Of a DNA stretch of 64,000 nucleotides, positions 15,301 to 64,000 are shown one piece after another (within the stretch, counting starts at the first letter, position 1; each line of letters opens with the position of its first letter). Under the pieces are notes generated by a model. That model made no database searches. It worked only from the letters and a program-made list of their open reading frames with translations, and was not told the origin of the DNA. This stretch comes from Daucus carota subsp. sativus (taxonomy: Eukaryota; Streptophyta; Magnoliopsida; Apiales; Apiaceae): NCBI RefSeq assembly GCF_001625215.2, contig NC_030385.2:35055598-35119597 (forward strand), given 5' to 3'. The translations under genes were made by a program, and so were the position numbers.

Positions 15301-16838
15301 TCTATAGAAGAATCAACCATATGAGCCAAGTATCCCTCACAACCATGTGCAATCATCTTCCGTGCCTTAATGGCTGAAATAAATTTTCCCAGAGAAGCAA
15401 GCTTAGAACCTTGGAACTCAAACTCGGGTGAATTTGGATTCCCGAAAATTATCTTCTTTCGCTGACAATCGATAGTAGCCTTATGTTGTTCCAACCAATC
15501 CATCCCCAAAATAACATCAAAGTCTCGCATCGGAATAGGTAAGAGATCGACAGATAATTCCCTATCTTCAATTCTAACCACACACTCAAGATATTGAACA
15601 TTCACAGACATATTTAACCCCATAGGGTTAGCAACAGAAAATTCAGACAACAATGTAGTAGGTGCAATGCATAGATGTTTGACGTAAGATGTAGAAACAA
15701 ATGAATGTGTAGCACCAGTGTCAAATAAGACTGTAGCATCACAATTACCAATCGAAAGTGTTCCTGTAATGGTACCTGAAGAGTTAGCCGCATCCTTTGC
15801 AGTGAGAGAAAACACGCGTCCAGAATTTTTCTGCTCATTCTTCCCATTATTATTATTCTGGTCCCCAGACTTCTTTAATGGTGCCTTGCAGTCCTTGATA
15901 GTATGGCCTTGACGGCCACAATTGAAACATGCTCTAGAAATCCAGTGACAAACACCACTGTGCATTTTCCCACAGTGTGCACAAGCAGACCTTCCTCCAT
16001 TCTGACCAGTTTGACCGCCTGACTGACTCCCAGATTGACTGCCTGACCTGTTTTGCTGATTCCCCTGATTCTCATTTTTCTGCTGAAAACTGCGGGTGTT
16101 GTACCTTTGATTGTTCTGTCTAAATCCGCCCGAAGATCCACCATTATTCTGGAATTTGGGCGGATCATCATCCCTCTTCCTCTTCTGACCCTGCATGTCC
16201 TTTTGTTTACGAAAATCAGCCTGATGAAGCTCCTGGTCCCTGGCACTATCAACTAAGCTGTCCATAGTGGTGTAGCGGTTAGCAATAATATGATTCCGGA
16301 TTGAAGTCTTTAGAGCCCACTTGAACTTCATAATTTTATCAGCGTCGTTCCCAGCAATAGACCGAGCATAATTGGCAAACCTCTGAAATCGAATCTGAAA
16401 ATCTGCCACAGACTTATCCTCCTTCTGAGCAATATTCTGGTACTCACGAGCATACTCCTCACGAACACTAGCAGGAAAATATCTCTGATCAAATTGTGCC
16501 TTGAACACATTCCAGGTGAGAGTGTCCTCATAGCCAGCTGCATGAGAAGCAACCATTGACTTCCACCAAGTACTAGCATCCCCTTCAAGACGGTAGATAC
16601 CAAAACGAGCTTTCTCCACCTCAGAACAATTTAGGACCCGAAATATTTTCTCCATGTGATCAATCCAAGCCTCAGCATCCATAGGGTGTTTAGCTTCCTT
16701 AAAAACATTGGGCCGCTGATTCATAAAACGGTCAAACATAGTCTGGCCTTCTTGATTGGGCACATTACCAGGAGGATTCTGCCTTTGCTGATTAGCTACC
16801 TCCCTAACCATGTCCAAGAAAGTTTCCCTGTCCATCAC
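12384..16838 (-). mobile_element. gag-pol coding region of the gypsy element
   Basis: Domains in element order, with approximate positions: gag with the WWKSM motif (16.8-16.1 kb); a CCHC zinc knuckle reading [14 protein letters not shown] (15.93-15.89 kb); an aspartic protease with LFDTGATHS (about 15.72 kb); a reverse transcriptase with [19 protein letters not shown] (about 15.0 kb) and FIDDILVY (about 14.7 kb); RNase H with [10 protein letters not shown] (about 14.3 kb); an integrase with an HHCC finger (about 13.6 kb) and the DDE core, including [12 protein letters not shown] (about 13.2 kb); and a chromodomain ending KYPYLFE (12.5-12.4 kb). The order with integrase last is Ty3/gypsy. The region is almost fully open, with about one break. 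Confidence 0.9.
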
Positions 16839-16907
16839 AATCTATTGTCCCCCTGCATTATTTCTCAAGGTATCTCTTCTAGGCGGCATCCTGCAACATT
16901 TATTATG

Positions 16908-21372: not shown

Positions 21373-21548
21373 AAAACATAAATAGGAGACTGTATTTTAT
21401 TTACAAAACCTACTTGTATTCGATTTAGAAATCAAAAATATAATTTATTTACCAAACATGTTACCCTCCATAGATTTGTATATAAGGGATATAATGCGTG
21501 CAAAAACCTAAAGACAAATCGTTAATCTGTTCCACCTGTTCTACGTCT

Positions 21549-22670
21549 ATGGCCAACAATTTCGACGGCGATATACCTGAAGACATAGTTAGAGAAATAC
21601 TTTTGCGGCTTCCCGTGAAACTATTGTTACAATACACGTCGGTTTGCAAGACATGGCTATCCATAATAACAAGCCCGGATTTCATAAGCTCTCATACTCA
21701 CCGTGCCTTGATGGTCTCCCGGATAGATCCCACACTACTCGCTATTAGAGTTAATGAACTAATACTATTCTCTCGGGCTCGGGATGGACTAACTAGTAAT
21801 AATAATCATTCAAATAATCTCCTTGTCATGCCTCGTCTTTTTGGCATCAAACCTTTTGTTATAAATTCTTGTAATGGCATCATCTGTGTTGCTAATTTGG
21901 TTAACCATAATGATTTATTCTACCTATGGAATCCAGCGATCAGGAAGTGTAGGAAACTTCCTGATCCTCCTAGGCGGCGCAGTTATAGATATATAATAGG
22001 GTTTGGTTATGATTCTATCTCAGCCGACTACAAGGTAGTTAGGTGCGAGTATGATTATTCAAGGTACTTTAAAGCCCGAAAAGTGCATGTGTACTCCACG
22101 AATGCTGATTGTTGGAGAGAAATTAGGCCTACTATACCTCTAGAGTATAGCAGTTGGATACCTCTAGAGTATCGCGGTTGGAGATCAAAAAGGGCTGATA
22201 TTGTTGTGAACGGGGTAGTGTATTTTGATAACTTTGATGAGCTTATATCATTTGACCTGCACAAAGAGATTTTTGGACGAATTCCACTTCCTAGCTCTCA
22301 TCGACTACAGCTGTCAAAAGTCTTGGATTTTGAAGGCGCGGTAGCTATGGTATTTGGATATATTGGTGATGAAGTGGGAGCTCATCTATGGACATTGGAT
22401 GATGTTTCTGGCCGAGTAACTTGGACCAAAATATTTAGCATCGATGCTGATCCGGACTCATATTTATGGCTAAAATGTTATTTGGGCGGGGGACAATTTT
22501 GTGGAAGAATTACAAACAAAAAAACTGATGATGTGTATAACATCTTGTATAACTATGAGAAGAAAAAGACTAAACTCTACAGAAATGATCTAGATGACTC
22601 CACTGTTTTAACAGGTATGATACACACAGAGACACTTGTTTCTCTTGGAGGTTTTGAACAAGTGGAGTGA
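21549..22670 (+). CDS. F-box protein, FBA type (array copy A)
   Basis: Predicted SCF substrate receptor, 373 residues from the Met at 21549 (MANNFDGDIPEDIV), in one exon. The in-frame Met at 21498 is less likely because copies B, C and E start at MANNFDG. The F-box lies at residues 8-50 (REILLRLPVKLLLQY, CKTWLS). FBA motifs are NGIICV, LWNPAIRKCRKLP, GFGYDSISADYKVVR, YSTNADCWREI and LWTLDDVSGRVTW. It is unique in carrying an in-frame 24-bp tandem duplication (22134-22157 and 22158-22181) that doubles a PLEY-type segment in the FBA region. The 3' flank lacks the GTAAC donor of the two older genes; the equivalent site reads GACAAC. Confidence 0.92.
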   Translation: MANNFDGDIPEDIVREILLRLPVKLLLQYTSVCKTWLSIITSPDFISSHTHRALMVSRIDPTLLAIRVNELILFSRARDGLTSNNNHSNNLLVMPRLFGIKPFVINSCNGIICVANLVNHNDLFYLWNPAIRKCRKLPDPPRRRSYRYIIGFGYDSISADYKVVRCEYDYSRYFKARKVHVYSTNADCWREIRPTIPLEYSSWIPLEYRGWRSKRADIVVNGVVYFDNFDELISFDLHKEIFGRIPLPSSHRLQLSKVLDFEGAVAMVFGYIGDEVGAHLWTLDDVSGRVTWTKIFSIDADPDSYLWLKCYLGGGQFCGRITNKKTDDVYNILYNYEKKKTKLYRNDLDDSTVLTGMIHTETLVSLGGFEQVE

Positions 22671-23943: not shown

Positions 23944-24828
23944 AAGTTTACCTAAACCGGCTCTGAATCAGCATTTAGTTTTATATGCAATCTACAGTAC
24001 AACATTACGAAATATAAGAAAAGCACACGATTTTTGGTTCGGTCTGACTGCGGAAGAAGAAAGTAACTTATTGATTTCACTCATGGGATTGTAGACTGCA
24101 ACCTTCACCTTGTGGCTGGTTAGATCCTGCATTTAACACCCATCCAAACACCTGATTTATATAGGATAAAGGTTTTATAAATAAAATTAGGATAAAGGTT
24201 TTATAAATAAAATTATGGATAATATACAGGTAAAAAAGGAACTCACTCCATCCCTCTTACAAATATTTTATTGTCATATCAAAATAATATTATTTTATTT
24301 ATAATAACTTGAACTATTAATTATATGTTATTTTTAGATACAATCAAATATTACAACCGGGTTCATTAAACATGTTGGTTCCTATCAAAATATAAAATCT
24401 CATAGTTCATATTTATTCTATCGTATTTTGAACATATAAAGAATGAAAATCGTATTCTAATTATAAAAACTAGTTGAATTTTGCAAAATATCATTTTATT
24501 TTGTTTTGAAAAAAAAAAGAAGAAATTGTATATGACTTACAAAACCTACACATATTTGATTTGAAACAACAAAGGTATAATTTATTTTATATATAAATAT
24601 TTATTATTAATATATAGAGTTAAGTTTTTTGGAGTCTTGGAATACTCATTATTTGTAATTTGATAGAATATAATTTAATGGTTCCAAATTTAATTTTGTT
24701 TTTCTTTACAATATTTTTAAACATACCACAAGTCATAACTATATTATCATGTTAGACTTGTAGTTAGGATACAATGCGTGCAAAAACCTAAAGACAAATC
24801 GTGAATCTGTTCTCCTTGTTCCACATCT
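23944..24828. other. Spacer upstream of F-box copy B
   Basis: AT-rich spacer shared in part with the upstream regions of copies C and E (for example TAGATACAATCAAA and CGTATTCTAATTAT). The last 60 bases (ACAATGCGTGCAAAAACC) are conserved before copies A, B and E and are the probable 5'UTR and core promoter. No other gene is seen. Confidence 0.5.
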
Positions 24829-25965
24829 ATGGCCAATAATTTTGACGGCGATATACCTGAAGACATAGTTAGAGAAATACTTTTGCGGCTTCCCGTGAAA
24901 CTATTGTTACAATACACATCGGTTTGCAAGACATGGCTATCCATAATCACAAGCCCGGATTTTATAAGCTCTCATACTCACCGGGCTTTGATGGTTTCTT
25001 TGATAGATCCCACACTACTCGCTATTAGAGGAGTTGATGAACTAATAATATCTGGAGTTGATGAACTAATGCTATTTTCTCGGGCTCGGGGTGGACTAAC
25101 TAATAATAATAATAATAATCATTCAAATACTAAGTTTGATCGCCTTGTCGTGCCTCATCTTTTTGGCATCAAACCTTTAGTCGTAAATTCTTGTAATGGC
25201 ATCATCTGTCTTGCTAATTTGGCTAATCAGAATGATTTAGTCTACTTATGGAATCCGTCGATCAGGAAGTGTAGGAAACTTCCTGATCCTCCTAGGCGGC
25301 GCAGTTTTAGATTTAAGATAGGGTTTGGTTATGATTCTATCTCAGCTGACTACAAGGTGGTTAGGTGCGATTATGATTATGATTATTTAAGGTATTTTGA
25401 AGCCAAAGTGCATGTGTACTCTACGAATGCTGATTGTTGGAGAAAAATTAGGCCTAATATACCTCTAGAGTATCAGAGATTAGGGAGGGCTAATCTTGTT
25501 GTGAATGGGGTAGTGTATTTTCAAGACAATGATGAGCTTATATCATTTGACCTGCACAAAGAGAGTTTTGGACGAATTCCACTTCCTGGCTCTCGTCGAC
25601 TACAGCTGTCATATGTCTTGGATTTTGAAGGCGCGGTAGCTATGGTATTTGGATATGTTGGTGATGAAGTAGGAGCTCATCTATGGACATTGGATGATGT
25701 TTCTGGCCAACTACCTTGGACCAAAAGATTTAGCATTGATGCTGATATGGACTCAGGCTTATGGCTAAGATGTTATCTGCGCGGAGAACAATTTTGTGGA
25801 AGAATCACAAACAAAAAAACTTACGATGTGTATAACATCTTGTATAACTACAAGAAGAAAGAGACTAAACTTTACAGAATTGATCGAGATGACTCCACTG
25901 TTTTAACAGGTATGATACACACAGAGACACTTGTTTCGCTTGGTGGTTTTGAACAATTGGAGTGA
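24829..25965 (+). CDS. F-box protein, FBA type (array copy B)
   Basis: Predicted SCF substrate receptor, 378 residues in one exon, starting MANNFDGDIPEDIV. The F-box is nearly identical to copy A (residues 8-50). FBA motifs are NGIICL, LWNPSIRKCRKLP, GFGYDSISADYKVVR, YSTNADCWRKI and LWTLDDVSGQLPW. An in-frame 24-bp tandem duplication (25030-25053 and 25054-25077) doubles GVDEL, and an Asn run (five Asn) is longer than in the other copies. Both changes lie between the F-box and the FBA region. Upstream DNA is shared with copy E. The gene appears intact. Confidence 0.92.
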   Translation: MANNFDGDIPEDIVREILLRLPVKLLLQYTSVCKTWLSIITSPDFISSHTHRALMVSLIDPTLLAIRGVDELIISGVDELMLFSRARGGLTNNNNNNHSNTKFDRLVVPHLFGIKPLVVNSCNGIICLANLANQNDLVYLWNPSIRKCRKLPDPPRRRSFRFKIGFGYDSISADYKVVRCDYDYDYLRYFEAKVHVYSTNADCWRKIRPNIPLEYQRLGRANLVVNGVVYFQDNDELISFDLHKESFGRIPLPGSRRLQLSYVLDFEGAVAMVFGYVGDEVGAHLWTLDDVSGQLPWTKRFSIDADMDSGLWLRCYLRGEQFCGRITNKKTYDVYNILYNYKKKETKLYRIDRDDSTVLTGMIHTETLVSLGGFEQLE

Positions 25966-28723: not shown

Positions 28724-28843
28724 TAATAAAATAATGTTAAACTTTGAAAAATAAATTACCAAAAAGGCTAGTATACATAAGGATATAATCCGTCCAAAGA
28801 CCTAAAGACAAATCGTGCATCTGTTCCACCTTGTTCTTCGTCT

Positions 28844-29938
28844 ATGGCCAACAATTTCGACGGCGATATATCTGAAGACATAGTTAGAGAAATACTTTTG
28901 CGGCTTCCCGTGAAACTATTGTTACGATACATGTCGGTGTGCAAGACATGGCTTTCCATAATCACAAGCCCGGATTTTATAAGCTCTCATACTCAGCGTG
29001 CCTTGATGGTGTCCTTGATAGATCCCACACTACTCGCTTATAGAGGAGTTGATGAACTAATATTATTCTCTCGGGCTCGGGATGGACTAACTAATAATAA
29101 TCATTCAAATAATCTCCTTGTCATGCCTCGTCTTTTTGGCTTCACACCTTTAGTTATAAATTCTTGTAATGGCATCATCTGTGTTGCTAATTCGGTTAAT
29201 CATAATGATTTATTCCACCTATGGAATCCAGCGATCAGGAAGTGTAGGAAACTTCCTCATCCTCCTAGGCGGCGCAGTTATAGATATATAATAGGGTTTG
29301 GTTATGATTCTATCTCAGCCGACTACAAGGTGGTTAGGTGCGAGTGTGATTATCCAAGGGACTTTAAAGCCAACAAAGTCCATGTGTACTCCGCGAATGC
29401 TGATTGTTGGAGAGAAATTAGGCCTACTATACCTCTAGAGCACGGTTTGAGATCAGGAAGGGCTGATATTGTTGTGAACGGGGTAGTGTATTTTGAAAAC
29501 TTTGATGAGCTTATATCATTTGACCTGCACAAAGAGATTTTTGGACGAATTCCACTTCCTAGCACTCATCTACAACCGAAGTCAGATTTATTGGATTTTG
29601 AAGGCGCGGTGGCTATGGTATTTGAAAATGTTGGTGATGAAGTGGGAGCTCATCTATGGACATTGGATGATGTTTCTGGCCGTGTAACTTGGACCAAAAG
29701 ATTTAGCATCGATGCTGATCCGGACTCACGCTTATGGCTAATATGTTATTTGGGCGGGGGACAATTTTGTGGAAGAATCACAAACAAAAAAACTTACGGT
29801 CTGTATAACATCTTGTGCAACTATGAGAAGAAAGAGACTAAACTTTACAGAATTGATCGAGATGACTCCACTTGCTTAACAGGTATGATACACACAGAGA
29901 CAATTGTTTCGCTCGGTGGTTTTGAACAATTGGAGTGA
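28844..29938 (+). CDS. F-box protein, FBA type (array copy C)
   Basis: Predicted SCF substrate receptor, 364 residues in one exon, starting MANNFDGDISEDIV. The F-box is at residues 8-50 (REILLRLPVKLLLRY, CKTWLS). FBA motifs are NGIICV, LWNPAIRKCRKLP, GFGYDSISADYKVVR, YSANADCWREI (Ala replaces the Thr seen in the paralogs) and LWTLDDVSGRVTW. It lacks both 24-bp duplications seen in copies A and B. A Stowaway MITE ends 120 bp upstream and may supply or disturb promoter sequence. The frame is intact. Confidence 0.92.
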   Translation: MANNFDGDISEDIVREILLRLPVKLLLRYMSVCKTWLSIITSPDFISSHTQRALMVSLIDPTLLAYRGVDELILFSRARDGLTNNNHSNNLLVMPRLFGFTPLVINSCNGIICVANSVNHNDLFHLWNPAIRKCRKLPHPPRRRSYRYIIGFGYDSISADYKVVRCECDYPRDFKANKVHVYSANADCWREIRPTIPLEHGLRSGRADIVVNGVVYFENFDELISFDLHKEIFGRIPLPSTHLQPKSDLLDFEGAVAMVFENVGDEVGAHLWTLDDVSGRVTWTKRFSIDADPDSRLWLICYLGGGQFCGRITNKKTYGLYNILCNYEKKETKLYRIDRDDSTCLTGMIHTETIVSLGGFEQLE

Positions 29939-35786: not shown

Positions 35787-35911
35787 AATTATAGCCAATA
35801 TGTAGCCAAAATCATTGGAGATGGTCTTATATCATCATATTTGTAGTTAGGATACAATGCGTGCAAAAACCTAAAGACAAATCGTGAATCTGTTCTCCTT
35901 GTTCCACATCT

Positions 35912-37006
35912 ATGGCCAATAATTTTGACGGCGATATACCTGAAGACATAGTTAGAGAAATACTCTTGCGGCTTCCCGTGAAACTATTGTTACAATACAC
36001 GTCGGTTTGCAAGACATGGCTATCCATAATCACAAGCCCGGATTTCGTAAGCTCTCATACTCACCGTGCCTTGATGGTTTCCTTGATAGATCCCACACTA
36101 CTCGCTATTGGAGGAGTTGATGAACTAATGTTATTTTCTCGGGCTCGGGGTAATAATAATCATTCAAATATTAACTTTGATCGCCTTGTCATGCCTCGTC
36201 TTTTTGGCATCAAGCCTTTAGTCATAAATTCTTGTAATGGCATCATCTGTGTTGCTAATTTGGCTAATCAGAATGATTTAGTCTACTTATGGAATCCGCC
36301 GATCGGGAAGTGTAGGAAACTTCCTGATCCTCCAAGGCGGCGCAGTTACAGATTTAAGATAGGATTTGGTTATGATTCGATCTCAGCTGACTACAAGGTG
36401 GTTAGGTGCGATTATGATTATAATGATGTAAGGTACTTAGAAGCCAGAGTGCATGTGTACTCCACGAATGCTGATTGTTGGAGAGAAATTAGGCCTACTA
36501 TATGTCTAGAGTTTCGGGGATTATGGGGGGCTAGTATTGTTGTGAATGGGGTAGTGTATTTTGAAAACTATGATGAGCTTATATCATTTGATACACACAA
36601 AGAGATTTTTGGACGAATTCCACTTCCTAGCTCTCATCGACTACACATGTCAAATGTCTTGGATTTTGAAGGCGCGGTAGCTATGGTATTTGGATATGTT
36701 GGTGATGAAGCAGGAGCTCATCTATGGACATTGGATGATGTTTCTGGCCGAGTAGCTTGGACCAAAAGATTTAGCATCGATGCTGATCTGCACTCTGGCT
36801 TATGGCTAAAATGTTATTTGGGCGGAGGACAATTTTGTGGAAGAATCTTAAACAGAGGAACTTGCGATGTGTATAACATCATGTATAACTATGAGAAGAA
36901 AGAGACTAAACTCTACAGAAATGATCTAGATGACTCCACTGTTTTAACAGGTATGATACACACAGAGACACTTGTTTCGCTTGGTGGTTTTGAACAATTG
37001 GAGTGA
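35912..37006 (+). CDS. F-box protein, FBA type (array copy E)
   Basis: Predicted SCF substrate receptor, 364 residues in one exon, starting MANNFDGDIPEDIV. The F-box is at residues 8-50. FBA motifs are NGIICV, LWNPPIGKCRKLP (differing from the AIRK/SIRK of the other copies), GFGYDSISADYKVVR, YSTNADCWREI, LISFDTHKEIFGRIP (Thr where the others have Leu) and LWTLDDVSGRVAW. The 60 bases before the start match copy B, but everything farther upstream has been replaced by the nested transposon complex. The frame is intact. Confidence 0.92.
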   Translation: MANNFDGDIPEDIVREILLRLPVKLLLQYTSVCKTWLSIITSPDFVSSHTHRALMVSLIDPTLLAIGGVDELMLFSRARGNNNHSNINFDRLVMPRLFGIKPLVINSCNGIICVANLANQNDLVYLWNPPIGKCRKLPDPPRRRSYRFKIGFGYDSISADYKVVRCDYDYNDVRYLEARVHVYSTNADCWREIRPTICLEFRGLWGASIVVNGVVYFENYDELISFDTHKEIFGRIPLPSSHRLHMSNVLDFEGAVAMVFGYVGDEAGAHLWTLDDVSGRVAWTKRFSIDADLHSGLWLKCYLGGGQFCGRILNRGTCDVYNIMYNYEKKETKLYRNDLDDSTVLTGMIHTETLVSLGGFEQLE

Positions 37007-50717: not shown

Positions 50718-52898
50718 ATGGCCAAAATGATCAAGCCCTTAGCTTTCTTTTTGCTTCTCTCAGTTTTGCTAGCTTCGGTTAGTGCTTTCACTCATCATGA
50801 CCCGAGTCAGGGTGGTCACCAGGGTCAAGATCCCGAAAAGGAATACAAGTACTCCCGTCTTTCACTGAAACTCGAACTCTCGACTGTTCTTGTATTTTTG
50901 TCATGTTTTTAATATTTGGATTTGTATGATAAATTGTGAAACAGGGAATGTAAACAGCAGTGTAAGAGACAGGCCGATCCGGGGAGGAGGCAGGAGCAGG
51001 AAGATTGTCAACGTCAGTGTAAGGAGAGGTACGATGAGCGCCGACAAAAGGGTGGTGACACGGACCCTATAACAGGAGGCGAATCACAACAAGACAACAA
51101 CCCTTATGTTTTTCAAGAGCAGCATTTCCAAACACTTAGCGCTCAACATGGCAAGCTCCGAGTTCTTCCCAGGTTCTCTGATCATTCCAAGCTTCTTCGA
51201 GGTTTCATCAACGCCTTCCGTTTTGCTTACCTTGAGGCCAACCCGCAAACTTTCTTGCTGCCTCAGCATGTGGATGCCGAGCTCCTCTTAGTCGTTGTTC
51301 AAGGTGAGTTTGTACATTAATATGCATATATTGTTTGATTGAATGATGAAGTTATTCGAAGGATTTGAGATTAAGTTGAGTGATTGTTATAGGAAGGGGA
51401 AGAATCAGCTTGTTGCGTCCCGGTGGAAGGCAGAGTGTGAATCTCAGAGTAGGAGATATTATCAGAGTTCCTGCAGGAACAACTACTTATCTGATCAATA
51501 GTGACAATAACGAGAAGCTTATCATAGCCAAGCTCATCCAGCCTATCTCCACGCCAGGCGAATTCGAGGTACTTATATATGATCAGCAAAGAAGCTCCTG
51601 TTAAGTCATGAAAAGTTAGCTTGTTTGAGACTATTTCTGATTATTTACTTTGTGTGTAATGTTAGCCGTTCTTTGGAGTTGGAGCGAAGAATCCAGAGTC
51701 CTTCCTCAGGGCTTTCAGCACTGAGATACTGGAAGCCGCATTAAATGTGAGCCTCCTAACATGGAAGTTTAGTACTAATAATTATTAATTCTTCGTTTTT
51801 AAAGTATTAACATGGGATTCATTTGGTTTTAATTTGGAATATAGGAAAAGAGGGACAAGGTTCAGAGGTTGCTTGATGCACAGAAGGGTGATTTTATAGT
51901 GAAGGCTTCGGAAGAGCAGATCAGGGCTCTGGACAAGAAAGACGAGGAAGGAGGTAAAGGCATATGGCCTTTGCCTTTCGGTGGTGGTGAATCAGAGAAC
52001 AAGATTAATATTTTAAGGCAAAATCCTGTTGAATCGAATGAGTTTGGTGAGCTCCGCGAGGTTAAACCCAGTGACTTTAGGCCGCTCGAAGATTTTGATG
52101 TCACTGTTTCCTTTGCTAACATCACACAGGTACGTTCATTTCATTCTCACTGGATATGTAGACGTTTATGAATGTATTATTTGTGTGATCTTGATTGATG
52201 TGTTTGTTCAGGGAGGCATGTCAACTATCTTCTTCAATTCCAAGGCAATTAAGATCTCTGTGGTGACGAATGGAGCTGGGGAACTTCAAATGGCATGTCC
52301 GCATTTGGCACAGGAACATGGCCAAGGACAGCAAGGCCGTGGTGGCTCTCAGGAGGGCCAAGGACAACAAGGCCGTGGAGGCTCACAGGAGCAGGGCCAA
52401 GGAGGCCGTGGTGGCTCCCAGGAGGGACAAGGACAACAAGGGCGTGGAGGCTCCCAGGAGCAGGAGCAGGGCCAGGGCCAAGGAAGCCATGGTGGTTCAC
52501 AACAGCAAAGCTATGAGAAGGTGCAAGCACGTTTGACGCAGGGTGTGGTGTTTGTAACCCCTCCCGGCCACCCTCTAACTTTGGTAGCTTCCAAAAACCA
52601 GAATCTTGAGGTTCTCTGCTTCGAGATCAACGCTAGAAACAATGAGAGAATTGCTCTGGCAGGTAATCAAGTGATTACGAAATTGTTAAAAATTGTTCCT
52701 ATATGTTTGATAAAACAGCTAACAAACTTCATTCTAATTTCAGGGCAAGACAACATATTCCAACAGATGGAGAAGGTTGCAAAGGAGCTGGCTTTCAACA
52801 GACCATCTCAAGAAGTGGATGAAACATTCGGGGCAAACAGGAAGAAATGGTTCTTCAAGGGTCCTAACCAGCAGCAACCAGGCCGCGCCTACGAGTGA
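50718..52898 (+). CDS. Vicilin (7S globulin) seed storage protein
   Basis: Seed storage protein of the bicupin family, sent through the ER to protein storage vacuoles. Seven exons: 50718-50848, 50945-51303, 51393-51568, 51666-51746, 51845-52129, 52212-52662 and 52744-52898. They total 1,638 nt and 545 residues. Residues 1-23 are a signal peptide ending SVSA. Residues 46-69 hold C-X3-C-X14-C-X3-C, the pattern of the antimicrobial-type N-terminal peptides of vicilins. The first cupin begins near residue 94 (NPYVFQEQHFQTL) and includes GRGRISLLRPG. The second spans about 300-520 (NEFGELREVKP, GGMSTIFFNSKA) and carries a Gly/Gln-rich tandem insert. It ends GRAYE. The donor after exon 1 is AA|GTACTC. 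The frame is intact across all junctions. Confidence 0.92.
52310..52500 (+). repeat. Gly/Gln-rich tandem repeat inside vicilin exon 6
   Basis: Four or more imperfect copies of a unit coding for GQGQQGRGGSQE. They lie in a surface loop of the second cupin, just after the ELQMACPHL segment, where many vicilins carry acidic runs instead. All frames in this stretch stay open because of the repeat, so the antisense and shifted open frames here are artefacts. Confidence 0.9.
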
Positions 52899-53455
52899 AG
52901 GAGAAGCTAGCAACATCAATGGAGTAACGGGCGATGCATCAGTAGCAGGGCTACTTTTCTTATGTTATCTATAAATAAGACGTGATGTAAATTTCGAGTG
53001 AGTTTTTATGGAGAAGAATGCAGTAATGTGGTTTTGTACCGTGTAATCCTAACTATGATGATGCATTATATATAAATAAATATTGCCTTGCTCCCAATTA
53101 AAGCATCTCCATGTTGCTGGATGAGTCTATATTCTTGAAAGTTTATAAATCTATCATTTTTAATCACTTCTTGAAAATATAAAACTGTATTTCTCGTCTA
53201 CATGTACTATCCATAGGAGTTAAAAACTATCAAAATCTCGGAAAAGTTATCGTTCCCCGTTTACATGCCAACGTTTCTTGTTTATTCTTCAAGCTGCAGT
53301 TCACCTTGTAAAGTCTGATACCTGAAAACGCAAAAATAAAATGCCACCAACAAAATCTGAAAGATGGCCCATAATAACGAAAATATGGAAGGTAATGCCC
53401 AGAATACCTCAGTTTGATAAAATGACCGTGAATGACGCCAAGAGACGTGCAGGAA
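52899..53455. other. 3' flank of the vicilin gene
   Basis: Contains AATAAATA-type polyadenylation signals near 53075-53085 and then AT-rich DNA. AAGCATCTCCATGTTGCTGG at 53101 may be a worn Harbinger-type MITE end. No gene is seen. Confidence 0.4.
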
Positions 53456-53529
53456 GTAGCGTTTTTATATAATAAAAACACGCTACTTCGTGTAGCGTCT
53501 TCTACTTTTAATAAAAGAGAAGACGCTAC
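53456..53529. repeat. Two adjacent hairpins built on GTAGCG
   Basis: Hairpin one is 53456-53486 (GTAGCGTTTTTAT and its inverse). Hairpin two is 53492-53529 (GTAGCGTCTTCT and AGAAGACGCTAC). A third half-copy, ACTTTAAGTAGTG, follows. Such palindromic blocks occur near the ends of CACTA transposons, but no CACTA terminus was seen here. Confidence 0.7.
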
Positions 53530-53587
53530 TTTAAGTAGTGTTTATAAATTTTTTATTATATGTTTGTTTATAATGCATGCCAAACAT

Positions 53588-53843
53588 AATTAGAAAATAT
53601 GATTTTGATTGGAAAATGTGGTTTTATTTATTTTTGTGCAAGCATACTTCAATATATAGCGAGTTTTATATTTATACAAAAAAACCACAATCTAAACGCA
53701 TATTAAATCAAGTAAAACAACGCATGAAAAACGCAATTGAAAAATGTGGTTTTATTTATTTTTTGCAAACATACATCCAGTTTAATACAAGTTTTATATC
53801 CATACAAAAATACACTACAGTCTAAACACATATTGAAAATCTC
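53588..53843. repeat. 128-bp unit in two tandem copies
   Basis: AAATGTGGTTTTATTTATTT recurs with period 128 (starts near 53613 and 53741). In both copies it is followed by GCAAGCATAC/GCAAACATAC and TACAAAAA. Moderate divergence. Confidence 0.8.
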
Positions 53844-55362
53844 GATAGTTCAAAATTTTTCATGTTGGTTAAGAAAGTTATTCTTCTAAACATGTTTTGG
53901 TGGAACCTAGCCTTTTAATTTTGTGATGAAGACTTGCCGTCATATTACTTTTTTTATATCCTCTTTCCATTTTTTTATATCTTCTTTAGATTCTTTAAGT
54001 TATATAATGATACACATATAACTTTACATAAGTATACACTATAAAATATTTTAAACTTAAAAATGATGATTCTAAGTGCAAAATTAGATAATAAGAGAAA
54101 TAAAAAATATTTTTAATTATTTTTTATTTGTTATAAATAGATTTAATAATAATTGAAAAAATTCCTAAATTATATTTATAGTGACTCATACAAGCATAAA
54201 TGTGTGTCAAACTTCATTTTAAATAAAATCACAATATTTATGCATACATAAGATAGAGGAAATTTGAAGCTAATAATCTTGAAGACACGGCTAAAAAATA
54301 GGCAAATTATGACAGAAATTAATGCTTCAATCCGTCATAAAACATCAACTTACGAGAGAAAATTTACAAATTATTTGATCATAGTAAGTTCATAAAAGCA
54401 TCACAAAAACATGGTTTTATCATAAATTGAAAACATAGATGGTAAGTTCTGAGTAGGTGGAGCCCGCATTAGTGTCAAAGTAATTGACAAACTTATGATG
54501 CCTTGTCCATCGTAAGATGGATGAATTACGACTGAACCCTTCAATCAGAGTCTTGTACTTGTGATCATATGATGTTCGGGAAGATATGTATAAACACCGT
54601 AACCGATGAGTCATTTTAAAATGTCTCAATACTTTATCGGAATAATACTATTCTTGGCACTTCTCTTTATCAACTTCTTTCGATCAATTTCATTTGTTGA
54701 TGCACTTCTCACCAATCATATAGAATTAGTTAGGATATCTTTTTTCCAAATTTGGAGCACTTCACTCTATTTTAAATGCACAATTTTTCTTCAATATCAT
54801 GTTAATTAGTCTTTATGATTTAAGAAGTATATCGAAAGAGTTTATATATATAGTGCTGCACCAGAGCTTGCATATATAGGTTAGCATAAGATATAATTTT
54901 ATTATTCTTTATTCTAACAACACCTTCATGTTTATCTTGGTGCATTTTAAAGACATGCTCACAAACAGCATATTTAGAAAATGAATCTAAGAGTCTCAAG
55001 TGGCTCCAAATCAACATTCTCTTTGCTCATAATATTTTGTTACAACTGTATAAGAACAAAGCAAAGCATCTGTGGAATGCCTCCTGAACTTTATTACATC
55101 ATCATGTCACGAATTTCCGGCAGCACCTATACATATTTCATTTGCCGGAGCAATCATGCATCACATAGAATCTTTGCTCATTGCTGGCAGCTTAAAAAAA
55201 GATGCACGCAGATTATTGTAATTAAAATGCTATTGCTACAACTAAGACTCCAACCATCAAGATAACTCAAATTACTGCCATCTCTTTGTCCAAGAAAGTA
55301 TATTAGCTCTTAAAGTTCTATTGCTACAACTAAGCTCTTAAAGTTGTGGGGCTTCTTTAATT
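53844..55362. other. Transposon-rich spacer before the 4-kb array
   Basis: Contains words CCGTCATAAAAC and ACTTACGAG near 54330, related to those in the array's CACTA-like block. A patch of normal GC at 55050-55265 has an open frame of 94 codons without a recognised domain. No gene is supported. Confidence 0.4.
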
Positions 55363-55639
55363 AAAGTTTGTCTTTTAAGAAGATGAAAACTGCATTTCTA
55401 CTTCTACCAATCAATCTTGGTAAGCCTAGATAGGACTTTTATTGTCTGCTAATTGCAACAAAGTATACTGCAGGTACCTCCTGGTGGCCGCCCTAAGATG
55501 TTTAAATTATTGTGCTCCTATAATTATATTTAAAGAAATGTAAGGCCAATCAAATAACAAAAAAAATCTAATAACACTATATATAATAGATACTTCTTCA
55601 ATTTATATGATGGAAAACAAACAACAGAAAATGTGGGCG

Positions 55640-56265
55640 CTCATAATTTATAACCGACAAGACATTCGGTGGTCACTTGGGCCATAATAGTCCGACGGAA
55701 GGGGTTTCCATCATAAGTTTTATATTTAATATTAAATTCATAGCACGGAAATATAAACTAATGCTTTTTATTGCTGCGAAGCATTTCGTAATAAGTAACT
55801 TGTCTAGTTTGGATATTTTGTTGAAACAAAAAATAATAAAAAAATAGGTTTTTTTTACCTGGCCAATTTTGTCATAAACTATCCGTCGTAAGTTTAAATA
55901 TTTTCAATAGTTAAAGAGTTCTGTCGTAAATTGACTGTCATAATATGTTGCCTTAATATTAAGTAAAGGAAGATTAATTTTTCCCCACAATTGTTTTTTT
56001 ATACATTTTCTATGAGAAATTAAAATTTTAAAATATGAAGTTCAAATTAAAAACTAAAAGAATGAAAGAATTTTTGTTTAATGACCTTCCGTCGTAAATT
56101 GATTGTCGTAATATGACATGCTAGTATTAAAATATAAAAATTAACTTTTTGGTCATAAGTTTTCCGTCAAAAATTCTCATTTTAATATGAATATCAAACT
56201 AAAAAAATGGAAAGTAAATTATTCAGCATTTTTCGTCGTAAATATCAGTCGTAAGTTTGCGACAG
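55640..56265. repeat. Clustered GTCGTAA motifs, CACTA-like subterminal block
   Basis: Ten or so words of the type CCGTCGTAA, GTCATAA or TCGTAAG in both orientations lie within about 600 bp, for example TTTCGTCGTAAATATCAGTC followed by GTAAGTTTGCGACAG. Dense short motifs in two orientations are typical of the subterminal regions of En/Spm (CACTA) elements, where the transposase binds. No CACTA terminus or target duplication was found. Repeated in copy 2 (about 59640-60235). Confidence 0.45.
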
Positions 56266-56329
56266 CATTTTGTTACATGAGGTATTAATATAATGCCAGA
56301 CCAAGGAATCAATTCGATTAAGGAGAATT

Positions 56330-56600
56330 GTAAGGATTTTGGGACTGGGAATGAACCCCGAGATGGGCCTGAACAGGGTCTAAGTGGGGCCTAGTAGGGT
56401 CGGGACGGGGCCTAGTGGGACCATGGTGGGGCCAAGTTTTGACTCTTAAGGCTGTCTGGAGCCTGTCCAGGGCCAGTGCGGAGCCTTGGCGGGGCCCTAG
56501 CGGGCCCGGGGCGGATTGAGTGGGGGCGAGGGTGGGCCCGAGATGGGTGATGACATATAGGGGGTGGGTGATGACATATAAGAAGGTGGGTGATGTCATT
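56330..56600. repeat. GC-rich minisatellite-like block
   Basis: A sharp GC-rich island in AT-rich DNA. It is made of degenerate GGGGCCTAGTGGG-type words and ends with three GGTGGGTGATG blocks. The 93-codon antisense open frame here is a result of the repeats. Repeated at 60295-60565 without visible change. Confidence 0.8.
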
Positions 56601-56604
56601 TAGG

Positions 56605-56746
56605 TATAGTTTCTCTTGGTTTGTATTTTAGTTTTTATCTTCGTGGTTTATCTTTGAGCATTTGCCTTTATATATATATATATAGGCAAATGCTCAAAGA
56701 GAAACAACAAAGATAAAAACCAAAATGGAAACCAATAGAAACTATA
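56605..56746. repeat. Long hairpin with AT loop
   Basis: Arms of about 63 bases (TATAGTTTCTCTTGGTTT at the left against AAACCAATAGAAACTATA at the right, and GAGCATTTGCCT against AGGCAAATGCTC) enclose an AT dinucleotide loop. Repeated at 60570-60711. Confidence 0.9.
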
Positions 56747-56946
56747 AAAGTTATAAACTAGGGATCCGAATATTCTTCAAAATAGGGATCCGAATTAAAT
56801 AGGGATCCGAATATTCTTCAAAATTAACAAATTTTGATAAAGTTATAAACAGAAGAACAATGATTACATAAGGTTTTATGTTTCCTCTCGAAATACATAT
56901 TTTTTAGAGTGGAACGTTATCAATCTATGTTTGCTTTCTTGTTATC

Positions 56947-57170
56947 TCGATGAAGATCATATCATTTTCTCGGCAAGAGTCTAAAGCTATATGTATTCTC
57001 TCAGGAAGTGGTGCCATGTCCAATGTCACTGTTAGAGCTATATATATTCTCTCAGCAAATGGTCTTCAACTTGTGAACATTGATGAGAGAATACATATAG
57101 TTGTAAAAGTAACATTTGGAATGACACCATTTCCTGAGAGTACATATAGCTCTAAGCTCTTGCTGCGAAA
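56947..57170 (+). pseudogene. Captured AHL (AT-hook nuclear-localized) gene fragment as an inverted repeat
   Basis: The plus frame reads VISMKIISFSRQ, then KAICILSGSGAMSNVTVR, a strong match to the PPC/DUF296 domain of plant AHL proteins (family text MKIISFSQQGPRAICVLSANG, shortened here). A second partial reading, IYILSANG, follows. The DNA is a nested inverted repeat: 56985-57029 pairs with 57109-57151, and 57038-57054 pairs with 57084-57100. There are thus two forward and two reverse copies of the CTATATGTATTCTCTCA region. No AT-hook and no full gene are present. It looks like exon capture by a transposon followed by inverted duplication. Confidence 0.75.
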
Positions 57171-57467
57171 CGACACGATCTTTATCAAGACATCATGCAA
57201 TCAAACAAAGATAGAAAATGTTCGACTCTAAAAATTTTTGCATTCGGATAAACCTTCTATAATAATAGTTATTTTGATTATAACTTTATCAATTTTATTA
57301 ATTATGAAGAATATTCATATCTCTATTTTGTTTATACATTTATAATTATGGTACGGTTATTATGAAGGTGAGTATAGTTTAAGATATCTTAGGAGTAAAA
57401 AGAATCCTAATATGTGGTTTACATAAACACAATTAATCATAAAAAGGAGTACCCCCTAACACCATCT

Positions 57468-57470
<3 letters not shown>

Positions 57471-57529
<59 letters not shown>
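57471..57529. repeat. (AT)n microsatellite
   Basis: A pure AT run of about 58 bases. The equivalent in copy 2 (61435-61486) is a few bases shorter. A second run is at 58401-58440, and its copy 2 equivalent (62360-62434) is nearly twice as long. Confidence 0.95.
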
Positions 57530-57533
<4 letters not shown>

Positions 57534-58407
57534 ATAAATAAATATATAATGTATCTCTTAGCAAAATGATGGTGGTCAACAGTCTCAACCACAACCATAA
57601 CCATATAAAGGGCTCAATCAACCTTTAAAAGCACAATACAGAGAATTTCAAGATATATAATCAAATAAATAAAGATTTAATTACTAAAATTTTAAGCCAG
57701 GTCAAGGATCCACAGAATGAATGGCTGAGTGTTCAATTATAAGAGAAAGAATCAAGTGAAAAAATTGCACACACAGACATTTGTATGTGATTATGAAAGG
57801 GAAAAAAGAAAGAATAATCAAACCCATCCTCATACATGAACATAATCTTAATTATATATATCATTTATACAAAACAAAATGAGAGAGAAAATGTGTCATC
57901 CCCCAAGATAGCTTTGAAAGAAAGATTTAAACAACTGATATTGCAATGAAACAATATTTAAACAATTGATATTATATATAACACCCACACAAACAGAGAG
58001 AGATTGACCAATTATACTCTCACAAATGATGTTTTAAACTTCATAAAAAAATGGGTATTTATACTAGTATAAGAAGTTTCTAGATAGAACGGGACACTGT
58101 TTCTAGATAGAACGGGACACTGTTGTTGAGCTGAACCAATCAAAATTAAAGAAATTTATACAGAGCCAATGAAATTAAGATACATTTAGAGAGAGCCAAT
58201 ACAAGTTGATCTTTACAATAGTATGACATGTTAAAACCAATTAAAATTTGAGATGATGACATGATTTTTTAATTATACTATTTAGTCAAAAAAATGTTAC
58301 ATAAACTTTTTTGTATATATATATACTATTTACAAAATAGCATTACCAAACTTTGCGTAAAATTTTATTGGGATAATTAAACTAATAATTATTTATACGA
58401 TATATAT

Positions 58408-58441
<34 letters not shown>

Positions 58442-58949
58442 TATTTTACTTATAATTGATGGTTATAAATTGAAACCTTTTATCATGATCAATAATATAT
58501 ATTGCAATATATTAAAATTCCATCAAAATATTATTCATTTATTGATATAAAAAAATCAATATAAAGAACAAAAAAAATTAAGTAAATAATTATTAACTCA
58601 AAATGAGTCTTTAGAAGAATATTAAATCTTTTCATGTGTAGTTAAATTTAAATAATTATACAATACTGGAGAAATTATGATAATACAATTTGATTTTAGA
58701 ATAATATAAATTTTAAAAAAATTTATAGAAATTTATAAGTCTATACTATGAAATTTCTAATTTAAGTTTTATGCATTTCATAAATATACACAACAAAATC
58801 TACAATAAAGTTCAGTTTTGTATAAGATTAAAAAGACACAATACATAGAATATTTGGGGGTGTTATACATTTTTTCTTCTAAAAGTTTAATATTTGTTTA
58901 TTAAAAAAACTTATATCAATTAGTTAAATTCCTTACAATATTTGTAATT

Positions 58950-59340
58950 TTATTGAGATGTTGAAATTTCCACATTTTTTTGAGAAAGTTTAGCAAGTTT
59001 TTTCAAGCGAAATCTGCTTATAATTAATAAGTTTAAGCTCAAAACTAGCACCATTGGATAGCCCAGTGGTCTCAAATTGTAACGCACCTGCATAATCCAG
59101 CTTAACGCTTCCCTTATTCCTAGAGCTTCAGACACATGAATTTCTGGATTGTCCTTGAAACAAGCGGCCGTAGCATAATTATTGTCCCTTGCAATGCAAC
59201 CCACTCCAAACTGTGATGAGTGCCTGAAAACCTGTCTTTATCTGAGGTTTGATCCAATGTTCATTAACACTGGCTCTGACCTGGACATGCTTCATTTGGA
59301 TGACCTGGACATGCTTCATTTGGAGGTTGCACAGGCTCCA
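58950..59340 (-). pseudogene. RNase H-like (RVT_3) relic, LINE-type
   Basis: The minus strand reads SQFGVGCIARDNNYATAACF, then EIHVSEALGIREALSWIMQ, the pattern of the RNase H-like domain at the end of plant LINE polyproteins. An internal 24-bp duplication encodes QVIQMKHV twice just upstream. There is no reverse transcriptase and the frame is broken. It lies at the right end of copy 1 and recurs at 62908-63330 in copy 2. Confidence 0.6.
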
Positions 59341-60911
59341 AACTAGCCCTACCGTGAATTTTTTTCTCAAAGTTTGTCTTTTAAGAAGATGAAAACTGCA
59401 TTTCTACTTCTACCAATCAATCTTGGTAAGCCTAGATAGGACTTTTATTGTCTGCTAATTGCAACAAAGTATACTGCAGGTACCTCCTGGCGGCCGCCCT
59501 AAGATGTTTAAATTATTGTGCCCCTATAATTATATTTAAAGAAATGTAAGGCCAATCAAATAACAAAAAAAATCTAATAACACTATATATAATAGATACT
59601 TCTTCAATTTATATGATGGAAAACAAACAACAGAAAATGTGGGCGCTCATAATTTATAACCGACAAGACATTCGGTGGTCTCCATCATAAGTTTTATATT
59701 TAATATTAACACGAAAATATAAACTAATGCTTTTTATTGCTGCGAAGCATTTCGTAATAAGTAACTTGTCTAGTCTGGATATTTTGTTGAAACAAAAAAT
59801 AATAAAAAAATAGGTTTTTTTACCTGGCCAATTTTGTCATAAACTATCCGTCGTAAGTTTAAATATTTTCAATAGTTAAAGAGTTCTGTCGTAAATTGAC
59901 TGTCATAATATGTTGCCTTAATATTAAGTTAAGGAAGATTAATTTTTCCCCACAATTGTTTTTTTATACATTTTCTGTGAGAAATTAAAAATTTAAAATA
60001 TGAATTTCAAATTAAAAACTAAAAGAATGAAAGAATTTTTGTTTAATAACCTTCCGTCGTAAATTGATTGTCGTAATATGACATGCTAGTATTAAAATAT
60101 AAAAATTAACTTTTTCATCATAAGTTTTCCGTCAAAAATTCTCATTTTAATATGAATATCAAACTAAAAAAATGAAAAGTAAATTATTCAGCATTTTCCG
60201 TCGTAAATATCAGTCGTAAGTTTGCGACAGCATTTTGTTACATGAGGTATTAATATAATGCCAGACCAAGGAATCAATTCGATTAAGGAGAATTGTAAGG
60301 ATTTTGGGACTGGGAATGAACCCCGAGATGGGCCTGAACAGGGTCTAAGTGGGGCCTAGTAGGGTCGGGACGGGGCCTAGTGGGACCATGGTGGGGCCAA
60401 GTTTTGACTCTTAAGGCTGTCTGGAGCCTGTCCAGGGCCAGTGCGGAGCCTTGGCGGGGCCCTAGCGGGCCCGGGGCGGATTGAGTGGGGGCGAGGGTGG
60501 GCCCGAGATGGGTGATGACATATAGGGGGTGGGTGATGACATATAAGAAGGTGGGTGATGTCATTTAGGTATAGTTTCTCTTGGTTTGTATTTTAGTTTT
60601 TATCTTCGTGGTTTATCTTTGAGCATTTGCCTTTATATATATATATATAGGCAAATGCTCAAAGAGAAACAACAAAGATAAAAACCAAAATGGAAACCAA
60701 TAGAAACTATAAAAGTTATAAACTAGGGATCCGAATATTCTTCAAAATAGGGATCCGAATTAAATAGGGATCCGAATATTCTTCAAAATTAACAAATTTT
60801 GATAAAGTTATAAACAGAAGAACAATGATTACATAAGGTTTTATGTTTCCTCTCGAAATACATATTTTTTAGAGTGGAACATTATCAATCTATGTTTGCT
60901 TTCTTGTTATC

Positions 60912-61135
60912 TCGATGAAGATCATATCATTTTCTCGGCAAGAGTCTAAAGCTATATGTATTCTCTCAGGAAGTGGTGCCATGTCCAATGTCACTGTTAG
61001 AGCTATATATATTCTCTCAGCAAATGGTCTTCAACTTGTGAACATTGATGAGAGAATACATATAGTTGTAAAAGTAACATTTGGAATGACACCATTTCCT
61101 GAGAGTACATATAGCTCTAAGCTCTTGCTGTGAAA
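60912..61135 (+). pseudogene. AHL inverted-repeat fragment, copy 2
   Basis: Same structure as 56947-57170. Both arms of the inverted repeat are unchanged. A single base difference near 61131 ends the open frame after SKLLL, outside the paired arms. Confidence 0.75.
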
Positions 61136-61432
61136 CGACACGATCTTTATCAAGACATCATGCAATCAAACAAAGATAGAAAATGTTCGACTCTAAAAAT
61201 TTTTGCATTCGGATAAACCTTCTATAATAATAGTTATTTTGATTATAACTTTATCAATTTTATTAATTATGAAGAATATTCATATCTCTATTTTGTTTAT
61301 AAATTTATAATTATGGTACGGTTATTATGAAGGTGAGTATAGTTTAAGATATCTTAGGAGTAAAAAGAATCCTAATATGTGGTTTACATAAACACAATTA
61401 ATCATAAAAAGGAGTACCCCCTAACACCATCT

Positions 61433-61490
<58 letters not shown>

Positions 61491-62356
61491 ATAAATAAAT
61501 ATATAATGTATCTCTTAGCAAAATGATGGTGGTCAACAGTCTCAACCACAACCATAACCATATAAAGGGCTCAATCAACCTTTAAAAGCACAATACAGAG
61601 AATTTCAAGATATATAATCAAATAAATAAAGATTTAATTACTAAAATTTTAAGCCAGGTCAAGGATCCACAGAATGAATGGCTGAGTGTTCAATTATAAG
61701 AGAAAGAATCAAGTGAAAAAATTGCACACACAGACATTTGTATGTGATTATGAAAGGGAAAAAAGAAAGAATAATCAAACCCATCCTCATACATGAACAT
61801 AATCTTAATTATATATATCATTTATACAAAACAAAATGAGAGAGAAAATGTGTCATCCCCCAAGATAGCTTTGAAAGAAAGATTTAAACAACTGATATTG
61901 CAATGAAACAATATTTAAACAATTGATATTATATATAACACCCACACAAACAGAGAGAGATTGACCAATTATACTCTCACAAATGATGTTTTAAACTTCA
62001 TAAAAAAATGGGTATTTATACTAGTATAAGAAGTTTCTAGATAGAACGGGACACTGTTTCTAGATAGAACGGGACACTGTTGTTGAGCTGAACCAATCAA
62101 AATTAAAGAAATTTATACAGAGCCAATGAAATTAAGATACATTTAGAGAGAGCCAATACAAGTTGATCTTTACAATAGTATGACATGTTAAAACCAATTA
62201 AAATTTGAGATGATGACATGATTTTTTAATTATACTATTTAGTCAAAAAAATGTTACATAAACTTTTTTGTATATATATATGTACTATTTACAAAATAGC
62301 ATTACCAAACTTTGCGTAAAATTTTATTGGGATAATTAAACTAATAATTATTTATA

Positions 62357-62438
<82 letters not shown>

Positions 62439-62907
62439 TTACTTATAATTGATGGTTATAAATCGAAACCTTTTATCATGATCAATAATATATATTGCAA
62501 TATATTAAAATTCCATCAAAATATTATTCATTTATTGATATAAAAAAATCAATATAAAGAACAAAAAAATTAAGTAAATAATTATTAACTCAAAATGAGT
62601 CTTTAGAAGAATATTAAATGTTTTCATGTGTAGTTAAATTTAAATAATTATACAATATTGGAGAAATTATGATAATACAATTTGATTTTAGAATAATATA
62701 AATTTTAAAAAAATTTATAGAAATTTATAAGTCTATACTATGAAATTTCTAATTTAAGTTTTATGCATTTCATAAATATACACAACAAAATCTACAATAA
62801 AGTTCAGTTTTGTATAAGATTAAAAAGACACAATACATAGAATATTTGGGGGTGTTATACATTTTTTCTTCTAAAAGTTTAATATTTGTTTATTAAAAAA
62901 ACTTATA

Positions 62908-63330
62908 TCAATTAGTTAAATTCCTTACAATATTTGTAATTTTATTGAGATGTTGAAATTTCCACATTTTTTGAGAAAGTTTAGCAAGTTTTTTCAAGCG
63001 AAATCTGCTTACAATTAATAAGTTTAAGCTCAAAACTAGCACCATTGGATAGCCCAGTGGTCTCAAATTGTAACGCACCTGCATAATCCAGCTTAACGCT
63101 TCCCTTATTCCTAGAGCTTCAGACACATGAATTTCTGGATTGTCCTTGAAACAAGCGGCCGTAGCATAATTATTGTCCCTTGCAATGCAACCCACTCCAA
63201 ACTGTGATGAGTGCCTGAAAACATGTCTTTATCTGAGGTTTGATCCAATGTTCATTAACACTGGCTCTGACCTGGACATGCTTCATTTGGATGACCTGGA
63301 CATGCTTCATTTGGAGGTTGCACAGGCTCC
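62908..63330 (-). pseudogene. RNase H-like relic, copy 2
   Basis: Repeat of the relic at 58950-59340 with a few base changes, one of which lengthens the tail of the open frame. Not functional. Confidence 0.55.
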
Positions 63331-63359
63331 AAACTAGCCCTACCTTGAATTTTTTTCTC

Positions 63360-64000
63360 AAAGTTTGTCTTTTAAGAAGATGAAAACTGCATTTCTACTT
63401 CTACCAATCAATCTTGGTAAGCCTAGATAGGACTTTTATTGTCTGCTAATTGCAACAAAGTATACTGCAGGTACCTCCTGGCGGCCGCCCTAAGATGTTT
63501 AAATTATTGTGCCCCTATAATTATATTTAAAGAAATGTAAGGCCAATCAAATAACAAAAAAAATCTAATAACACTATATATAATAGATACTTCTTCAATT
63601 TATATGATGGAAAACAAACAACAGAAAATGTGGGCGCTCATAATTTATAACCGACAAGACATTCGGTGGTCTCCATCATAAGTTTTATATTTAATATTAA
63701 CACGAAAATATAAACTAATGCTTTTTATTGCTGCGAAGCATTTCGTAATAAGTAACTTGTCTAGTTTGGATATTTTGTTGAAAAAAAAATAATAAAAAAA
63801 TAGGTTTTTTTTACCTGGCCAATTTTGTCATAAACTATCCGTCGTAAGTTTAAATATTTTCAATAGTTAAAGAGTTCTGTCGTAAATTGACTGTCATAAT
63901 ATGTTGCCTTAATATTAAGTTAAGGAAGATTAATTTTTCCCCACAATAGTTTTTTTATACATTTTCTGTGAGAAATTAAAAATTTAAAATATGAATTTCA
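63360..64000. repeat. 4.0-kb tandem unit, start of copy 3
   Basis: The first 641 bases of a third copy, cut by the window end. It shares the deletion near 63672 with copy 2, so the array continues to the right. Confidence 0.95.

Follow-up and report, generated by a model that had tools for sequence, protein, structure and literature searches.

A tandemly amplified inverted duplication of AHL intron and exon DNA in carrot as a candidate small-RNA hairpin locus

Small RNAs made from gene-derived hairpins can silence the gene of origin, and inverted duplication of the target gene is a leading model for how plant miRNA genes are born. MIR161 and MIR163 of Arabidopsis are MIRNA genes born in this way. 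IR71 of Arabidopsis and the CHS inverted repeat of soybean represent the long inverted-repeat siRNA loci, while Pack-MULEs and other transposons carry gene fragments. Here, we describe an inverted repeat of AHL sequence in a window of carrot DNA, which is the whole stretch of 64,000 nucleotides at C5:35055598-35119597. The window was compared with its own genome (441,086,747 bases in 11 contigs), and positions given without a contig name are those of the window.

In common with inverted-duplication MIRNA genes, the subject of a genome survey (PMC3237417), the locus contains part of a protein-coding gene that was inverted and duplicated. It also shares with them an imperfect hairpin, arms that can be aligned to the parent beyond 21 nt, and sequence antisense to parent genes. 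Unlike those genes, the carrot hairpin was amplified in tandem to at least 16 copies and is known from sequence alone. The long inverted-repeat siRNA loci resemble it in forming a long hairpin whose arms extend over hundreds of bases and are related to a gene family, but the arms in carrot are only about 80% alike (over about 265 nt, or about 400 nt or more in copies c14-c16). As in a Pack-MULE, a gene fragment with its intron is found away from its source and near repeats; in contrast to a Pack-MULE, the fragment makes both arms instead of the interior between terminal repeats, it was found at a single locus, and no terminal motifs were seen by eye in three copies. The inverted-duplication type of locus is already known, while its tandem amplification is unusual. 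We estimate a probability of about one half that this is an AHL-derived inverted-duplication hairpin locus, amplified in tandem, whose transcripts would be diced into small RNAs.

The preliminary description had placed the feature at 56947-57170. Global alignment of the two halves showed that the imperfect inverted repeat really runs from 56797 to 57328, AHL intron included, with arms of about 265 nt, and that 201 of 252 aligned bases were identical between the left and right arms. In self-BLAST, the palindrome extended over 551 columns with about 76% identity, gaps counted. The left arm (56797-57063, + strand) is sense to AHL and consists of an AHL intron piece (about 56797-56848), an intron end with exon (about 56894-57033), and a repeat of part of the exon motif (57033-57063). 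The right arm (57064-57328, - strand) is the reverse complement of the left arm, and is therefore antisense to AHL on the + strand. The exon parts form an inner foldback of 234 nt (56947-57180), which was the region singled out at first. A motif had been reported there with two forward and two reverse copies, and this was borne out, the forward ones lying at 56982-57012 and 57033-57063 and the reverse ones at 57087-57106 and 57136-57155; nested inverted repeats were also present.

The proposed folding check was run on 56947-57180, and both strands folded far more stably than shuffled sequences. The + strand reached -107.2 kcal/mol (z -12.5) and the - strand -118.1 kcal/mol (z -14.6), and in each case none of 200 shuffles folded as well. 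For the whole inverted repeat of 532 nt, the fold energies were -210.2 and -222.5 kcal/mol. A foldback was predicted in all 16 copies, the inner part ranging from -86.1 to -107.3 kcal/mol (+ strand, energies without a shuffle control).

The origin of the arms was analyzed at the protein and DNA levels. The first 29 codons from 56950 matched the Pfam PCC profile (PF03479) with an E value of 6.8e-5; the score of 23.6 bits falls slightly short of the curated cut-off of 25. The AHL match of this open frame was settled by DNA identity: the 234-nt query was 83% identical over 87 nt to an AHL exon at C5:32149821-32149907, which was also matched by the opposite arm at 77%, and 77% identical over 83 nt to an AHL exon at C6:37352172-37352254. 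The closest relative found, on whose identity the AHL reading had been made to depend, was therefore an AHL gene, which lies on the array's own chromosome at a distance of 3 Mb (C5:32.15 Mb). This gene has PCC matches in neighbouring exons (C5:32149794-32149916 and 32149029-32149217), both flanked by GT and AG intron ends. Its exon and intron end were aligned by both arms (donor positions 5044-5180 for the left arm and 5060-5180 for the right arm), and a piece of its upstream intron was aligned separately (4636-4694 by the left arm and 4653-4698 by the right arm). Both foldback arms can thus be aligned to a protein-coding gene over more than 21 nt, as is looked for in an inverted-duplication MIRNA gene. 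The preliminary description had spoken of a captured AHL exon; the AHL piece stood, while the exon alone gave way to intron and exon together in both arms.

Further traces of the donor were found in the diverged copies. Copies c11-c16 (6/6) retain CAGCAAGAG, matching CAGCAAGG of the C5 gene, where c01-c10 have CGG. The right arm of c11, c13, c15 and c16 retains TTGCTTGCATGATGTCT where the C5 gene has TTGCTTGCAGGATGTCT; the former reads as the splice acceptor of TTGCTTGCAGGATGTCT with its AG altered, which indicates that the copy was derived from unspliced DNA. We also constructed a tree of the two arms with 20 AHL exon regions picked as exon-sized, namely the C5 and C6 genes and 18 fetched regions; PCC matches in the genome numbered 137 in all. 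The two arms paired with each other (support 0.87) and then joined the C5 gene (0.81). The left arm was identical to the C5 gene at 70 of 84 positions and to the next, C6, at 63 of 84. The right arm, whose end was imperfectly cut and aligned, had 55 of 75 identities to the C5 gene and to L071 alike. We regard the AHL origin and the hairpin structure as firm, and DNA comparison confirmed that both arms come from the intron and exon of an AHL gene by inverted duplication at the DNA level.

The same genome contained dense clusters of PCC-domain frames at C9:28.0-29.7 Mb, C2:10.4-10.5 Mb and C2:18.4-18.5 Mb. Most of these frames match nearly the whole profile in a single frame and are intronless, and the clusters mark an apparent large local expansion of AHL-like genes in carrot.

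The hairpin lies within a tandemly amplified unit, in agreement with what had been described. Both full units of about 4 kb carry it: unit 1 (55703-59676, 3974 bp) and unit 2 (59677-63667, with its hairpin at 60762-61293), which differ by 22 substitutions and 7 indel events. The start of a further unit follows (63668-64000), and the array continues past the window. At least 16 copies were found in the genome, all on the + strand and within 124 kb (C5:35112344 to 35236263). With a 714-nt query, ten copies, the first window copy counted, were 97-100% identical to that copy, and c11-c16 were 92-97% identical, c12 and c15 being in pieces. In c14-c16, the arms are about 400 nt or longer, and the right flank (57329-57448) is mirrored on the left. 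The window copies are without this outer left part of the arm. Since the reverse complement of the outer right flank (57329-57470) is present on the left in c14-c16, the ancestral arms were probably longer. An 18-nt tandem duplication was observed within the left arm of c04 (C5:35124260-35124991).

Upstream of the array, the window contained six similar long frames that look F-box-like by eye and form a local gene cluster (822-1964, 6662-7762, 21495-22670, 24805-25965, 28781-29938 and 35888-37006), and a 23-bp tandem repeat of GTTTGATTAATCTGTCCTTTGAT type follows each of the last four. Two long adjacent frames on the - strand (12384-16841) look like Ty3/gypsy gag-pol by eye. Frames resembling vicilin-like seed storage proteins (50940-52898), the first of which matches solved vicilins, contain a Gly/Gln-rich 36-bp tandem repeat.

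Repeats in the neighbourhood of the hairpin bear on the possibility that the inverted repeat represents a transposable element in its own right, of foldback or Pack-TIR type, with captured AHL sequence. On its left, the hairpin adjoins a piece of a G+C-rich palindromic element (56307-56746) that is not AHL. Among the 40 of 540 candidates scored, the first part of this element (to 56604) recurred outside the array at no fewer than 25 places on 8 contigs, with 86-91% identity. The element is palindromic in diverged copies (c14: C5:35221654-35222421), and it is probably a foldback or MITE-type repeat. This dispersed neighbour, together with A+T microsatellites located at the arm ends of c14 and c15 and, in c16, at the right end, would suit a transposable element. 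However, the arms themselves are AHL sequence, and inspection by eye of the arm ends in three copies revealed neither a clear terminal motif nor a target-site duplication. With the 714-nt query and all 18 candidates scored, no paired arms were found outside the array, and the only other matches were pieces at two AHL genes. Among the 40 of 435 candidates scored, strong matches to the unit part 57560-59676 were likewise confined to the array locus; the remainder consisted of A+T repeat and a single short C3 piece. We consider a transposable element with captured AHL sequence very unlikely.

A CACTA-like end was considered at about 55674-56300 because CCGTCGTAA words recur there, near a CACT start; going by this motif, we presume that 55675-56300 may be a CACTA transposon end. 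In a search of 53001-64000 against Rfam, all 49 matches were under the gathering scores of their families, and most of them fell on an A+T-rich palindrome (56624-56727) and its copy. An assignment of the hairpin to MIR5304 was dropped, as the match (24.9 bits against a gathering score of 75, E 0.095) was taken as chance.

We then asked which small RNAs the hairpin could supply on paper. Windows of 21 nt were scored against the 20 AHL exon regions including flanking intron bases, a set from which intronless AHL genes were left out. Guide-like pairs with a score of 5 or less numbered 55 (+) and 185 (-) from the 532-nt hairpin, and 20 (+) and 8 (-) from 2117 nt of the tandem unit. On the - strand, 23 nt (56947-56969) match the C6 AHL exon perfectly in antisense. 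Such a match is expected by descent, and antisense sequence of this kind is looked for in an inverted-duplication MIRNA gene; against the C5 AHL exon there are 2 differences over the 23 nt, one a would-be G:U pair. This perfect match is retained in 14 of the 16 copies. The best guide-like match of the + strand was 57088-57108 against the C5 AHL exon, with a score of 2.5. Because all guide-like matches follow from descent, they are not independent evidence. On paper, the antisense strand could guide cleavage of AHL transcripts, and it is possible that small RNAs from the array act on AHL genes. A - strand transcript (the complement of 56947-56969) would supply the strongest guide, directed at the C6 and C5 AHL genes.

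Eligibility as a small-RNA precursor calls for a stable foldback with duplexes of five or fewer mismatches. In all 16 copies, each strand was predicted to have 115-177 eligible 21-nt positions for such duplexes; c01, with its inner foldback of less than 300 nt, had 176 (+) and 177 (-). So many eligible positions mean that no single duplex is prominent, which counts against a functioning young miRNA or trans-acting siRNA locus with AHL genes under its control and a copy number raised for dosage. Such a locus would fit the compact inner foldback, the antisense matches to the C6 and C5 exons, and the changes among copies, which were least frequent in the right exon part (11 per 113 columns, against 18 per 117 in the left exon part and 26 per 150 and 31 per 152 in the intron parts). 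Further evidence against it came from the comparison of all 16 copies, in which 107 changes were counted over 652 columns. The quietest 100 nt (57056-57155) had 6 changes against a mean of 16.5, and no significantly conserved stretch was found after scanning (P 0.14). Changes were not significantly rarer at paired sites (58 of 416) than at unpaired sites (19 of 116; P 0.64), and pair-keeping changes (20 of 54 scorable, 18.0 expected; P 0.067) were not above chance. We consider a working locus of this kind unlikely.

The hairpin arms had been described as unchanged between copies while nearby sequence had changed. Of the 22 substitutions between the two full units, none lies in the innermost part (56980-57155), so this held for that part. 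It did not hold for the arms, where two were found (56916 and 57166). About 3 would be expected in the inverted repeat by length, and the probability of 2 or fewer is 0.42, so there is no sign that the arms are protected. Against the first window copy, the mismatch rate of the 532-nt hairpin was below that of the downstream unit in c11, c12, c14 and c16 and above it in c02, c05, c08, c13 and c15; for the inner 234 nt, it was below in 6 of 9 compared copies. Selection on the hairpin, whether sought in pairing, in the rate against the rest of the unit or in the reading frame, gave tests that were negative or not significant.

These tests would suit an inert array, a fossil rearrangement spread by unequal crossing-over that is silent or of no consequence. 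Deletions in c11, c12, c14 and c15 point in the same direction, as does the unit itself, which is largely A+T-rich and microsatellite DNA. Against an inert array stand the foldback still predicted in every copy and the widely retained 23-nt AHL exon match, although recent common descent could explain both. We regard an inert array as possible, if somewhat doubtful.

We examined whether the frame starting at 56950 encodes a short protein that contains part of a PCC domain. The frame is open for 93 aa in the window copy, carries the weak PCC match noted above, and is 93 or 99 aa long in 11 of 16 copies. However, only about 30 of the 117 profile positions were matched, so that the domain is incomplete and the locus is not a complete AHL gene, and most of the frame is formed by the antisense repeat. 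In c02 (72 aa), c11 (83 aa), c12, c13 and c14, the frame is broken or shortened, and the variable sites by codon position (21, 9 and 10) show no third-position excess. A PDB search with the 93-aa frame gave no matches. On the frame breaks in diverged copies and the codon positions, the coding explanation was rejected, and we regard such a protein as extremely improbable.

In the literature, AHL or AT-hook was absent from the main text of two carrot miRNA papers (PMC10700493 and PMC6405255). The former, which describes 24 small-RNA libraries, states that among unique reads the 24-nt class was the most abundant. In radish, a table lists AHL19 as a predicted target of miR2111a-3p, an unrelated miRNA (PMC4956657). 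Words of the hairpin sequence, in RNA or DNA letters, had no match in main texts, and no case of AHL with an inverted duplication or hairpin miRNA was present among the literature matches listed.

While the homologies are observed, we infer the order of the steps by which the array arose. A piece of AHL intron and exon, of which the closest relative found is at C5:32.15 Mb, would have been copied as DNA, and its exon motif would have been partly doubled, since the doubling is visible in both arms. Head-to-head duplication would then have produced a hairpin with arms of about 400 nt or more, which came to adjoin the dispersed palindromic repeat. The outer left arm would have been partly lost, and the hairpin would have spread in tandem to at least 16 copies. 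Transcripts from either strand would fold as an imperfect hairpin and be cut by Dicer-like enzymes into small RNAs, mostly siRNAs directed at the array itself, while AHL-antisense small RNAs among them could dampen the two closest AHL genes.

We infer that the array most likely serves as a hairpin small-RNA locus with itself as the main target, and we place it somewhere between a decaying repeat and a proto-MIRNA. A true regulator of AHL genes is possible, and its positive support is the homology of the predicted guides. That it is a species- or lineage-specific regulator, in which an AHL gene's own antisense hairpin would tune AHL repression through copy number and dosage, we judge improbable.

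If inert, the array would be a tidy case in which a palindrome of gene origin was multiplied as a repeat. Its copy number may offer a natural test of dosage. With at least 16 copies of differing divergence, the decay or recruitment of a hairpin could be traced inside one genome, and hairpin intermediates with the intron still visible in both arms would be useful for the model of miRNA birth.
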